This document shows, in pieces, positions 15,248 to 21,440 of a DNA stretch of 27,821 nt. Source of the DNA: a virus; the IMG/VR virus record IMGVR_UViG_3300042905_004680, positions 1 through 27,821 of that record; one strand, written 5' to 3'. The number at the start of each line of letters is the position of its first letter. The stretch's first letter is position 1. Under the pieces are notes generated by a model. That model worked only from the letters and a program-made list of their open reading frames with translations. It was not told the origin of the DNA and made no database searches. The translations under genes were made by a program, and so were the position numbers.

Positions 15248-17349
15248 CACCAACCTCCCGCGCTTGCCATGCCCGTGTTGCGCGCCTGCTGCTCCGCTTG
15301 GCGGAAGGCCCGCGCCGTGCTCTGGCCGTCCACGATACCCGTCTGGAGGTTGTAGACGTTCGTGATGGGACCGCCACCGCCGGTGTTGCTGCTGGCCGTC
15401 GTTGAGGCCGCCCGCGTGGCCGGTGCCTGCTGGCCGCCCGCGCCACTGCTCGCCCCGGTCTTTAGGACCCCGCCGGCCGCGAGCCCGAACATGGCCGCCG
15501 CCGTGAAGTGGCCCGCGCTCTCAATCGGGTTTGCCAGCGTCGCGAAGCCCATGGCGGTCTCAAAGATGGCGCGGATGCCGGCTTCTGCCTTGACCCCGCC
15601 CACCTGCTTGGCGATGGCGCCAGCGATGGCGCTCGCGCTGCCCGTCACGGCCTTGGCCATGGAGGTCTGGCCGTCCTTGTACTTGCCCAGCTGGTCGGCA
15701 ACTTGCCCGATGACCGAGCTGATTTCGCCAAAGGCAGGCACCGCAACCTGCTCAAGCTGGGAGATGCCCTCCCGGTAGCTCTCAAGCTGCTTGAGCGGCA
15801 TTGCGCGGGCCTGCTTTTCGAGCTCCTCTTCGAGCTTCTTCTGGGTCTTCTCGGCCTCTTCGCGCAGCTTCTGCTCGGACTCCGCGGCCTTGTCCTTTAC
15901 CGCAGTCAGGCCGTCGACGCTCGCCGACAACTTGTCATAAGCCTCGCTCTGCTTCTTCAAGGCTGCAACGACCTCGTCCTCGTTTGGCTTGTCAAACAGG
16001 GAGTCAGCCTTGACCCGTGAGCCCAGCAGCTCGTCGACACCCTTGAGCTGTTTGTCGAGCTCCTTGCGGACCTCGTCGTAGGCCTGCGCGTATTGCCCCA
16101 CAGGCAGCGCCGTCAGCTCGGCCTTGAGCCGCTCCTTCAGCGCAGCCGCCTGCTCGAAGAGCTGCTTCTCGCGCTTGATTGCGACCTCGCGCTCGAACTC
16201 CTCGTTGCGGAAGTCGATAAGCCTGCTGCGCGCCTGCTCCTCTTTCTCGCGAGCTTCCTTCTCGCGCTCGGCCTTGCTCTTGCCGCCGCCACCCTTCGGC
16301 GTGTCCGGCTTTTCTGGCTCTTTCTTCTGCGGCCCGACGTTCGACAGCGCCGCGCCCATGGCTTCAGCGACTCGCGTTGCTAGGCCGAGCACGCCCGACA
16401 GCGCACCCTTCTGCTTGTCCAACTCCACGCGCGTCTTCGCCGCTTGCTCGGCGCGCTCTCTCTCCGGGCCCAAGGTCTGGGTTGTTAGAACCGAAATGTC
16501 GTGTTTGATCCGCTTGACGTCTGCTTCAAGCTTCTTTTTCTGCTCGGCGTAATAGACCAGCAACTCTTCAGAGCCTTGCTCATTGCGACTCGTCTCGGAC
16601 TTGATGCGAGCAATCTCTTTCTCTGCTGCCTCTTGGTCTTTTTTCAGCGCAAGCATAGCTTGCGTCGCCATGCGAACTTGGGAGTTGGCCTCGCGCTCTT
16701 CAAGCACGAGCTTGAGCCGTTGCTCAGCCAGCTCCTCCTGCTTGACCTTGAGCTCCTCGACGCGGGCCAGTTCCTTCTCGTGTTCGAGCTCCGCCTGCGC
16801 CCGCTCCTCTGCGGCCTTGTCGCCGGCGAGCTTGATTAGCTTCAGGCGGTCCTCCGCCATCTGCACGCCGACCGTTCTGTTCACGGCGGCGGCGGCGCGC
16901 TCCGCTTGGGCAAGCTTCTCGACGGCGTCTCTTGTGGTTTGGGCCTGGGCCTCTGCCTTCTTCAACTCCTCGGTGAACTTCTTCTGCGCCTCCTTGGCCT
17001 CCTCCGACTTCTCGGTAAAGAACTTGTAGACGTCGATGGCCGCGCTAACAGCCATCCCAAGGAACCCGAAGACACCGATGATCTTCTCTGTTGCGCCCTT
17101 GATCTTGTCGATGCCCTCGACCACGCCCTCGGCGTTCTTGGCATAGCCCTTCATGCGATCGTTAACGCCGACCGTAGCCGCTGCCGCGGTCTTTGCGGCC
17201 TCGGTCTGGTCCTTGCTGGCCCCCGTCAGCTGGCGAATCTTGGCCTCAAGCTCCGCCATCTGCTTTTTGGTGGCTTCGAGCATGGCCGAAACCTCGCTCT
17301 CGCCGACCAGTGCGACGTTCAGCTCACTCCGAGATGCCGTTAGCGCCAT
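15247..17349 (-). CDS. Tape measure protein
   Basis: A 700-residue protein with GGGAG before ATG 17349. Residues about 89-110 form a hydrophobic stretch (IIGVFGFLGMAVSAAIDVY). Most of residues 110-560 are highly charged coiled coil rich in Ala, Glu, Lys and Gln, interrupted by a Pro/Gly linker (PEKPDTPKGGGGKSKAE). The C-terminal region is hydrophobic and small-residue rich (FTAAAMFGLAAGGVLKTG), then a Gln/Ala tail. This is the layout of siphovirus tape measures, which set tail length and help eject DNA. By the usual 0.15 nm per residue the tail would be about 105 nm. It follows the two chaperone frames, the standard order. No lytic domain is seen. Confidence 0.85.
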   Translation of the reverse strand: MALTASRSELNVALVGESEVSAMLEATKKQMAELEAKIRQLTGASKDQTEAAKTAAAATVGVNDRMKGYAKNAEGVVEGIDKIKGATEKIIGVFGFLGMAVSAAIDVYKFFTEKSEEAKEAQKKFTEELKKAEAQAQTTRDAVEKLAQAERAAAAVNRTVGVQMAEDRLKLIKLAGDKAAEERAQAELEHEKELARVEELKVKQEELAEQRLKLVLEEREANSQVRMATQAMLALKKDQEAAEKEIARIKSETSRNEQGSEELLVYYAEQKKKLEADVKRIKHDISVLTTQTLGPERERAEQAAKTRVELDKQKGALSGVLGLATRVAEAMGAALSNVGPQKKEPEKPDTPKGGGGKSKAEREKEAREKEEQARSRLIDFRNEEFEREVAIKREKQLFEQAAALKERLKAELTALPVGQYAQAYDEVRKELDKQLKGVDELLGSRVKADSLFDKPNEDEVVAALKKQSEAYDKLSASVDGLTAVKDKAAESEQKLREEAEKTQKKLEEELEKQARAMPLKQLESYREGISQLEQVAVPAFGEISSVIGQVADQLGKYKDGQTSMAKAVTGSASAIAGAIAKQVGGVKAEAGIRAIFETAMGFATLANPIESAGHFTAAAMFGLAAGGVLKTGASSGAGGQQAPATRAASTTASSNTGGGGPITNVYNLQTGIVDGQSTARAFRQAEQQARNTGMASAGGW

Positions 17350-17695
17350 GGTGCCGCTCCCATCCTGCCAGGTCGTCGAGGTCTCGTACTACCCACGCGG
17401 GCAGGTCGTCGCCGCGTAGGGTACCACAGACGCGCTTTTCCGCCTGCAACGCGCGCAAGACCCGCAATCTCGGGCTGTTGCGCGCCTCGCCGATGGGGCA
17501 CGAGGGCCAGACCACGTCATAAAGCTTGCCGCCGGCGCAGAGCTCATCGCATGCCCCCTTGGCGATGCAGTGATACCCCCACCGGCCCAGCTCGTGAAGG
17601 CTGGCGGCCACTCGGAGGAGGGCTATTTCGTGGCCGCGAAAGGGTTGGTCGAGACCTTGTAGACCAGAGCCCCCAGCGTGCGCTGGAAATGCCAC
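17324..17695 (-). CDS. Tail assembly chaperone, downstream frame (gpT-like), probably made by -1 frameshift
   Basis: An open frame in the -1 register relative to the previous chaperone frame, overlapping it by 73 bases and the tape measure start by 26. Independent starts are GTG 17695 (GGAG eight bases upstream) or GTG 17611 (no ribosome site). The better reading is that ribosomes slip at 17638-17644, so this frame is read from 17638 on and adds 104 residues (RGHEIALLRV to GANGISE), giving a 215-residue fusion. The added part has Cys at several points, including IAKGACDELCAGG, and a Trp-rich C-terminus. Position between tail tube and tape measure is that of lambda gpGT, which coats the tape measure during tail assembly. 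Confidence 0.65.
   Translation of the reverse strand: MAFPAHAGGSGLQGLDQPFRGHEIALLRVAASLHELGRWGYHCIAKGACDELCAGGKLYDVVWPSCPIGEARNSPRLRVLRALQAEKRVCGTLRGDDLPAWVVRDLDDLAGWERHHGANGISE
17604..17644 (-). promoter_or_regulatory. Candidate -1 ribosomal frameshift signal
   Basis: On the minus strand, positions 17644-17638 read CCCTTTC in zero-frame register C CCT TTC, a perfect X XXY YYZ heptamer. It is followed at once by GCGGCCAC (17637-17630), which pairs perfectly with GTGGCCGC (17611-17604) around an 18-base loop. The zero frame stops at TAG 17625-17623 inside the loop, and the -1 frame stays open to 17324. The hairpin starts closer to the heptamer than the usual 5-9 bases, so the stimulator may be a different fold or a pseudoknot. 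Confidence 0.7.
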
Positions 17696-17970
17696 GGAAT
17701 GGGCTCCGCGCCGCTGATGAGCGGCCTGTCGCCCTCGTGCACCGCAGCATCGACCAGCGCGCCGAGCATCTTGCCGTCGTCCGACAGCGGGATGGCGTCG
17801 AACTCACGCCTGGACAGCGCCCGAATCCTGACCTTGGTGGCCTCTGGCCCCACGGTGGCCTCGGACACGGGCACCCACTCGTTCTCGCCACGCTCCCCGA
17901 CACCGGACACGTCCGGGTCGGAGGTGTTCACCACTTCGAAATAGGCCGTGTTGACCCGCTGCAACCCCAT
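17623..17970 (-). CDS. Tail assembly chaperone, upstream frame (gpG-like)
   Basis: A 115-residue protein with GAGGAG six bases before ATG 17970. It is acidic at the N-terminus and mixed alpha/beta, with VRIRALSRREFDAI in the middle and KVSTNPFAATK at the end. It sits between the tail tube gene and the tape measure gene, the conserved position of gpG-type chaperones, whose sequences are poorly conserved between phages. Its last codons carry a slippery heptamer, and a fraction of ribosomes is expected to continue in the next frame to make a gpGT-type fusion. The identification rests on position, size and the frameshift signal. Confidence 0.7.
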   Translation of the reverse strand: MGLQRVNTAYFEVVNTSDPDVSGVGERGENEWVPVSEATVGPEATKVRIRALSRREFDAIPLSDDGKMLGALVDAAVHEGDRPLISGAEPIPWHFQRTLGALVYKVSTNPFAATK

Positions 17971-19225: not shown

Positions 19226-19666
19226 TCAACCTGTGATGACAGCGCCGTCGAGCTTGTACACGACGACGACGGAAAACGCACTCGTGATTGAACTCGGCGA
19301 CGCCTCCGCCAGCCCGACGGGCTGCACGTCCACGCGCATGACGCCGGCCTCGGTCTCGAAGAGCCGCTCGGCCTTGCTCCAAAAGCGCTCAGAGTCCGAG
19401 GCGATACGGTCCTCCACGCCGGCCTGCATGGCCGCGTAAAAGAAGCTGACCGTGAACTCGACGCGCCAGGTGTCGCAGTTGTTGATTTCGACGCGCGCCG
19501 GCTGGGCCGCTAGCGTCAAGGTGAAGACGCGGTCGGGCGCCGAGTCCGGGTCGATAGCCCCGGCGTCGAGGTGCCGGAAGCGGTCGCCCGCGTGGGCCCG
19601 CACGTCCGGGATGGCGCTCTCGATGGCCGCCGCCAGCGCCTGACGGATGGTCGAGGCGCGCGTCAT
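19226..19666 (-). CDS. Tail terminator or tail completion protein
   Basis: A 146-residue protein starting at ATG 19666, which overlaps the upstream stop (ATGA). An N-terminal helix (STIRQALAAAIESAIP) is followed by strands (FTLTLAAQPARVEI, WRVEFTVSFFYAAM) and a C-terminal strand (AFSVVVVYKLDG). This order is typical of gpU-like terminators, which cap the tube and bind the connector. Its place between neck adaptor and tail tube genes supports the call. The sequence itself is not distinctive. Confidence 0.6.
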   Translation of the reverse strand: MTRASTIRQALAAAIESAIPDVRAHAGDRFRHLDAGAIDPDSAPDRVFTLTLAAQPARVEINNCDTWRVEFTVSFFYAAMQAGVEDRIASDSERFWSKAERLFETEAGVMRVDVQPVGLAEASPSSITSAFSVVVVYKLDGAVITG

Positions 19667-20535
19667 GTGCGGTTCAGCCGGATGGTCTTGGGCCCGACGA
19701 ACTCGGCGACGTCGACCTTGCCGTCGTCGTTGTCGTCGTGCCAAGTGCCAGACAGCGCAAACTCAAGCTGCTGCTTTAACTCCTCCTCCATGCGGTCGAC
19801 GAACGTGGTGCCGTCGAAGCCCGGAGGGATGAGCCCGTCGCGCGCGAGCTCGATGCGAAGCGCCGCCATGCCCGCGTCCGCGAGCAGGCTCTGGTCGCCG
19901 ACGAGGTAGGGCATGCGGCCGCTCGCCAGCACGCGCTGAATGACCCGCCGCGACGCCCGCTCGGCCACGCCGACCCAGTACTCGGACCGCTTGCCGGCCG
20001 CGACGCCAGGGAACGCATAGCCCGCGTGGCGAGCTGCGACGTCCGGCGTCATCGGCGTGGTGAATACGGTGCGACATACGCAGGCCGGCTCGAGGTAGTT
20101 GCTGACCTGACCCGCCGTCGGAGTGACGAGCCAGCGCAGCTGATACCACTGGCCGACCTGCGCAGTCGACGCGCTCGGGATGGTGGCCGACAGCGTGGCG
20201 CCGTAGAGGCTGGACGCGGTCGTGACCGTCACACCGAGGGTGTCCTGGTACGACACAGTCGAACCGGACACCGACGAGGGGCGGATGAGCGCCGCACCCT
20301 CGGTCGGATTAACGAGCCAGTACGCCCGGCCCGCCACGATGGTGCCCGCCCCGGCCGCCACCGTGAAAGAAAAGTCCCCGACGCTGGCGATCGCTCGCGA
20401 CACCGGGTCGAGGGTCACACTGGGAGACGACAGCGTGACACCCGCCGATGAGACGAACGCCAGCGTCGCAGACGCGGGACGCACCGGCGGCACGAGCTCC
20501 ACCGGTGCGCTTTGGTTCTGTTGCAGAAACCGCAT
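19663..20535 (-). CDS. Neck or head-tail adaptor with EF-hand-like loop
   Basis: A 290-residue protein with GAGGAG before ATG 20535. Residues 1-160 are beta-rich and look like an Ig-like or sandwich domain (WYQLRWLVTPTAGQ, CVCRTVFTTP). Residues about 160-260 are helical and end in a connector-like part (DRMEEELKQQLEFAL). Residues 267-278 (DDNDDGKVDVAE) match a 12-residue EF-hand loop: Asp1, Asn3, Asp5, Gly6, Val8, Asp9, Glu12. Its place between capsid and tail terminator genes suggests a head-tail connector or adaptor. Calcium binding is inferred from the loop only. Confidence 0.6.
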   Translation of the reverse strand: MRFLQQNQSAPVELVPPVRPASATLAFVSSAGVTLSSPSVTLDPVSRAIASVGDFSFTVAAGAGTIVAGRAYWLVNPTEGAALIRPSSVSGSTVSYQDTLGVTVTTASSLYGATLSATIPSASTAQVGQWYQLRWLVTPTAGQVSNYLEPACVCRTVFTTPMTPDVAARHAGYAFPGVAAGKRSEYWVGVAERASRRVIQRVLASGRMPYLVGDQSLLADAGMAALRIELARDGLIPPGFDGTTFVDRMEEELKQQLEFALSGTWHDDNDDGKVDVAEFVGPKTIRLNRT

Positions 20536-20561: not shown

Positions 20562-21440
20562 TCAGACCTCGGAGCCGACGATGCCGTCAGGCAGGGCCGA
20601 GACGGCCGCGCTGATCGCAAAATCAAGGCTGTACTTGCCAGCCTTGGAATCCTCGTCGATCTGCACCTGAAGGTCCGGCGCGCTGCGCTCCCAGAAGATG
20701 AGCGGCGAGCTGGAGCGGCTGACGAGGAACCAGTTGTCGGCATCGCTCAGGTGGTTCCAGACGATGGTCTGAATCCCGTAGGAGCCCGCCATGTTGAGCT
20801 GGTTCTGATCGCTGGTGACGGCCGAGCCGAGGGCCTGACCGGCAGCCTCCTCGAGGTCCGGCGGGACGATGAGGTAGAACCCACCCTCGGCGACAACGTC
20901 GCGCGGCAGGCCCTGGTAATCGCGCCACCGGCGGAACATGGCGATGGCCGCCATGATGGCCGCGGAGTCAAGAGCCGTGGTGAGCTTGTTGGACCGCGTG
21001 CCAATGGCCGTGGTGTGGTCCACAGCGCAGAGGGCCTTGCCGTCCACCGACGTGGTCTGCGTCGAGAACGCGCCAGCGAGGACCTCGGCAGCCTTGGCGG
21101 CGTAGGTCGAAGCGGTCGCCACGCCGATTCGCTGCGGCAGCGTGGTGGTCGACTCGGGCACGTCCTTGGCGTCGTACTTGTCAACGCGCACCTGGACGCC
21201 GTACTTTTCGTATTCGACGAGCTGCGGCGTCAACGCCTCAAGCTCCTGCACCGGGAGGTCGCCGCCCATCCACTTCGGAATCTGGGACACGCCGGTGATG
21301 GGCGAGATGCGGAGGTCGGCAATGTCGTTTCGACGGTAGTCGAACGCCTGCGCCCACTGCTCGGAGACCGAGAAGACGCCCTCGAAAAAGCGCTCGACGA
21401 CGGTCTGCTTGACGTTGGTATTGTTGAAATTGGTAGCCAT
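20562..21440 (-). CDS. Major capsid protein, Mu gpT-like
   Basis: A 292-residue protein with a strong AGGAGGT seven bases before ATG 21440. Features seen in Mu gpT-type HK97-fold capsids include DGKALCAVDHTT followed by a Ser/Asn/Lys stretch, an AIMAAIAMFRRWRD helix, FYLIVPPDLEEAAGQAL, and C-terminal FWERSAPDLQVQIDE, a typical capsid strand motif. The start (NTNVKQTVVERFFEGVF) resembles gpT-like N-terminal arms. It forms the icosahedral head. It is preceded by a decoration-like gene and a scaffold-like gene and followed by neck genes, the expected order. There is no obvious N-terminal delta domain, which fits a separate scaffold protein. Confidence 0.8.
   Translation of the reverse strand: MATNFNNTNVKQTVVERFFEGVFSVSEQWAQAFDYRRNDIADLRISPITGVSQIPKWMGGDLPVQELEALTPQLVEYEKYGVQVRVDKYDAKDVPESTTTLPQRIGVATASTYAAKAAEVLAGAFSTQTTSVDGKALCAVDHTTAIGTRSNKLTTALDSAAIMAAIAMFRRWRDYQGLPRDVVAEGGFYLIVPPDLEEAAGQALGSAVTSDQNQLNMAGSYGIQTIVWNHLSDADNWFLVSRSSSPLIFWERSAPDLQVQIDEDSKAGKYSLDFAISAAVSALPDGIVGSEV

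Follow-up and report, generated by a model that had tools for sequence, protein, structure and literature searches.

Organization of the late genes and the overlapping pair

The window analysed here is the whole of IMG/VR record IMGVR_UViG_3300042905_004680, a virus record of 27,821 nt with a GC content of 67%. The minus strand carries its late genes, in the order terminase, portal, major head protein, putative major tail protein, a pair of overlapping open reading frames (ORFs) and tape measure protein (Table 1). The terminase was matched by Pfam Terminase_6N, and the portal and the major head protein were matched by PHROGs; no family match was found for the putative major tail protein. The PHROGs match of the tape measure protein had an E value of 1.2e-3 in the window, and of 1.4e-6 and 5.1e-5 in relatives. 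The last 26 nt of the −1 frame are shared with the start of the tape measure gene. The overlapping G and T ORFs immediately precede the tape measure gene, the arrangement seen in G/GT pairs of the lambda type. Divergence along the late operon is uneven: the major head protein (20562-21440) is 100% identical in protein to that of contig 3300044616 (L009:6001-6879), whereas the tape measure proteins of the two are only 52% identical.

Table 1. Positions of the genes and sequence features at the tail chaperone overlap (window coordinates).
Feature	Position	Strand	Remarks
Putative major tail protein, 407 aa	17991..19214	minus	assigned by position and conservation only
G-like ORF, 115 aa, zero-frame product	17623..17970	minus	ATG, Shine-Dalgarno GAGGAG
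Slippery heptamer C_CCU_UUC (CCCTTTC), zero frame AAC CCT TTC	17638..17644	minus	
−1-frame extension (T-like), 104 codons and stop TGA	17324..17637	minus	
Stem of 8 bp with 18-nt loop, directly after the heptamer	17604..17637	minus	probably incidental
Zero-frame stop TAG	17623..17625	minus	invariant in all four sequences
GTG in the −1 frame	17609..17611	minus	only candidate independent start; invariant in all four sequences
Tape measure protein, 700 aa	15247..17349	minus	PHROGs tail length tape measure protein

The zero frame of the minus strand reads AAC CCT TTC GCG GCC ACG AAA TAG through the overlap, so the CCCTTTC heptamer of the original prediction does lie in the zero frame. The −1 frame reads NPF-RGHEIALLR at the junction and terminates at 17324, and translation gave the predicted 104 further residues and a fusion of 215 aa (111 + 104). 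The zero-frame TAG forces a rare ATA Ile codon onto the −1 frame. Within the window, the long −1 ORF has a GTG start at 17695. Heptamers of the form X_XXY_YYZ occur in frame eight times in the 5966 late-gene codons of this phage (approximately one per 750 codons), CCCTTTC being found once, and the chance of meeting such a heptamer within ten codons is about 1%.

Searches of Pfam and PHROGs gave no match for G or T, and no chaperone family was detected. The structure model of G was poor (pLDDT 41) and that of T had no fold match; the first helix of T is predicted at residues 4-25. The two proteins are thus putative G and T by their position rather than by a family match. Five cysteines of the −1-frame protein (17324-17644, minus strand; aligned-frame positions 26, 32, 36, 49 and 73) are invariant in all four sequences compared below and could form a metal site.

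The heptamer and both reading frames are conserved in relatives

Relatives were sought by protein-based scans, and the window was compared with three IMG/VR contigs, L003, L004 and L005, which have 72-83% nucleotide identity to it over G-T. The closest is L003, with a G protein 82% identical to that of the window, compared with 73% for L004 and L005. As the DNA of L004 and that of L005 are 94% alike over their shared stretch, the comparison covers about three independent lineages. Repeated viral scans yielded no contigs carrying the chaperone pair beyond these three; they also returned L012, which stops short of the pair. Genome scans gave no further relatives, G, T and the tape measure protein had no match in cultured phages, and the ORF table of distant capsid relatives (about 30% identity) held no clear comparable overlap with a heptamer.

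The four sequences align gap-free across the overlap. The original prediction had called for a comparison of the heptamer in related phages, and the result showed that an X_XXY_YYZ heptamer is kept at the same codon in all three contigs, as CCCTTTC in L004 and L005 and as CCCTTTA in L003. In L003, Phe is replaced by Leu through the very rare codon TTA (2 of 232 Leu codons), with CCCTTT retained. The 11-nt run ACCAACCCTTT, which contains the heptamer, is invariant in all four sequences and ranks among the three longest stretches without variation in 600 nt; no third position varies within it, compared with 70 of 108 third positions in G. Between the deeper lineages, about 60-70% of fourfold sites have changed. 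The G proteins end in NPFAATK, NPLAVTK or NPFGPTK, and the −1 frame continues after the heptamer as RGHEIALLRV, SGHEIALIRV or RPDEIAVLRV.

In L003, a TAG lies in the −1 frame two codons before the heptamer. No upstream start can therefore serve the −1 frame, the GTG at 17695 of the window is not conserved as a gene start, and the change of frame is confined to about ten codons, up to the zero-frame stop. The heptamer is the only in-frame X_XXY_YYZ in that stretch. A sequencing or assembly error that splits one continuous gene can practically be dismissed: nothing specific speaks for it, and the same frame break and TAG are present in the window and in the three contigs, which come from different metagenome datasets. 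Transcriptional slippage was also set aside, as the homopolymer run at the site is never longer than three.

The downstream frame lacks an initiation signal of its own

The original prediction had named a conserved independent start of the downstream frame as evidence against frameshifting. Such a codon exists, as the GTG at 17611 is invariant in all four sequences, yet none of them has a Shine-Dalgarno sequence before it. Pairing with the anti-Shine-Dalgarno sequence was 0.1 kcal/mol at this GTG in each of the four, compared with about −9 kcal/mol for G and about −7 kcal/mol for the tape measure gene. Together with the closure of the frame upstream in L003, this leaves the downstream frame without an initiation signal of its own, as is found in pairs of the lambda type.

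The invariance of the GTG is what would be expected if ribosomes terminated at the TAG at 17623 and restarted at 17611, 11 nt downstream, to make a separate T of about 95 aa, and the distance between stop and restart suits such coupling. However, besides lacking a Shine-Dalgarno sequence, a restart at this codon would cut the predicted first helix of T and would leave the conservation of the heptamer unexplained. The pattern of variation ahead of the GTG also argues against it, on few sites. From the GTG onwards, variable columns at −1-frame codon positions 1, 2 and 3 number 21, 16 and 51, an excess at third positions. Between the zero-frame stop and the GTG the numbers are 2, 0 and 3, a small set, and the four codons there (A-L/V-L/I-R) change at codon positions 1 and 3 only. 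These few sites, which precede the GTG, are suggestive of codons that vary as a translated −1 frame would. Termination followed by reinitiation is thus considered quite improbable.

The adjoining hairpin is probably incidental

Directly after the heptamer, the 8-bp perfect stem with an 18-base loop holding the zero-frame stop was found exactly where it had been described, with GCGGCCAC (17637-17630) pairing with GTGGCCGC (17611-17604) around a loop at 17629-17612. At only 0.7% of positions does a perfect stem of at least 8 bp with a loop of up to 30 nt begin within 0-9 nt. Folded in isolation, the hairpin has an energy of −15.3 kcal/mol (z −3.4); folded with 60 nt of context, z is +0.6. Across the relatives, four of the eight pairs are lost in one sequence or more, with breaks in the closest relative, L003, too; no compensatory change restoring them was found among the four sequences, and in this comparison every shuffle was at least as good by all measures. 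The hairpin was therefore rejected as a conserved stimulator.

Its placement points the same way. With CCU in the P site, the stem begins at +7 from the first P-site base, that is, with a spacer of zero, whereas spacers are usually 5-9 nt after the heptamer (PMC5009743). Beyond the first P-site base, the bacterial mRNA channel accommodates 11 nt, and the stem-loops examined in that work inhibit at 11-12 nt (PMC7282821). These figures suggest that the stem would be inside the channel and largely melted when slippage happens. Of the original prediction, the frameshift reading is upheld by gene position and by the conserved heptamer and frames, but the inclusion of the hairpin in the signal is not, and the unusual spacer is better explained by an incidental hairpin. 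It probably lies outside the signal and does not act as a stimulator.

A variant in which the heptamer is used with the hairpin as a stimulator or pausing element peculiar to this phage is doubtful. The z of −3.4 in isolation is consistent with it, as is the fact that the stem would meet the entry of the mRNA channel one to two codons before the slip. It is opposed by the lack of conserved pairs or compensatory change, by the position of the stem within the channel when the P and A sites hold the heptamer (deduced from PMC7282821) and by competing folds in longer context. The probability given below for frameshifting includes this variant.

A conserved structure about 5-9 nt after the heptamer, as in canonical −1 signals, was likewise not found: the consensus fold of the four sequences contained no conserved, well-placed substitute stimulator. 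Its best-supported helix starts 31 nt downstream of the heptamer and has one clean covarying pair, but it was rejected as a stimulator since similar or better helices occurred in an ordinary gene. As a by-product of this control, the 290-aa gene that follows the major head protein gene (19663-20535) was seen to hold two 9-bp helices that are present in all four sequences and show several two-sided changes.

Proposed frameshift and relation to known systems

A programmed −1 ribosomal frameshift like that of lambda G/GT is the favoured reading of this locus, with a probability of roughly 0.88. The sequence evidence supports it well: the position next to the tape measure gene, a heptamer and two reading frames that the relatives retain, the −1 stop in L003 and the missing ribosome-binding site of T. 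From these features we infer that the shift occurs, that it does so at a low rate and that the products have a chaperone role. Most ribosomes would make the 115-aa G protein and end at the TAG. In a minority, the P-site tRNA-Pro, decoding CCU, and the A-site tRNA-Phe, decoding UUC (in L003, tRNA-Leu decoding UUA), would slip back by one base to CCC and UUU, giving a G-T fusion of 215 aa. If the proteins work as in lambda, G would coat the tape measure protein, and the T part of the fusion would recruit the major tail protein.

The lambda heptamer is GGGAAAG. The order putative major tail protein, overlapping pair and tape measure protein is the same as in lambda; the heptamer differs, family searches gave no sequence similarity, and the pair described here is known from sequence. 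Lambda makes gpG plus gpGT by a low-level −1 shift, and a 30:1 ratio of the two is needed for tail assembly (PMC5009743). The remark in the original prediction that many siphoviruses make such fusions at this gene position agrees with the wide conservation of G-T frameshifting in long-tailed phages despite low sequence similarity (PMC5009743).

The heptamer had been called unusual, and C_CCU_UUC/A is indeed uncommon, though precedents exist. A survey of annotated chaperones showed that all four bases occur at each position of the heptamer motif (PMC10885494). The G/T site of phage 9g, CCCUUUUUUU, likewise places a slippery CCC-UUU run in the gene of a tail chaperone, but the shift reported there is −2 and uses a longer run of U (PMC4276943), compared with −1 on C_CCU_UUC, or C_CCU_UUA in L003, here. 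In phage SPP1, gp17.5/17.5* are the products of a putative −1 shift on the likewise pyrimidine-only UUUUUUC and share 112 aa, compared with 111 here, but the P-site half is UUU instead of CCC (PMC6316719). The C_CCU_UUA of Giardiavirus is identical to the L003 heptamer; however, this is a eukaryotic dsRNA virus for which a pseudoknot was proposed, and use of the site is disputed in the same work (PMC8230311). No report of C_CCU_UUC in a tail chaperone was found in the openly licensed literature. It is tentatively suggested that the locus represents a pyrimidine-only −1 shift on C_CCU_UUC/UUA that works without conserved downstream structure, in a phage group with G and T proteins unrelated by sequence to known chaperones.

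The proposed shift would place tail-chaperone frameshifting in a GC-rich phage group without a close cultured relative, and would add an uncommon heptamer to the list of tail-chaperone sites. It also indicates that an eye-catching hairpin beside a slippery site can be incidental.
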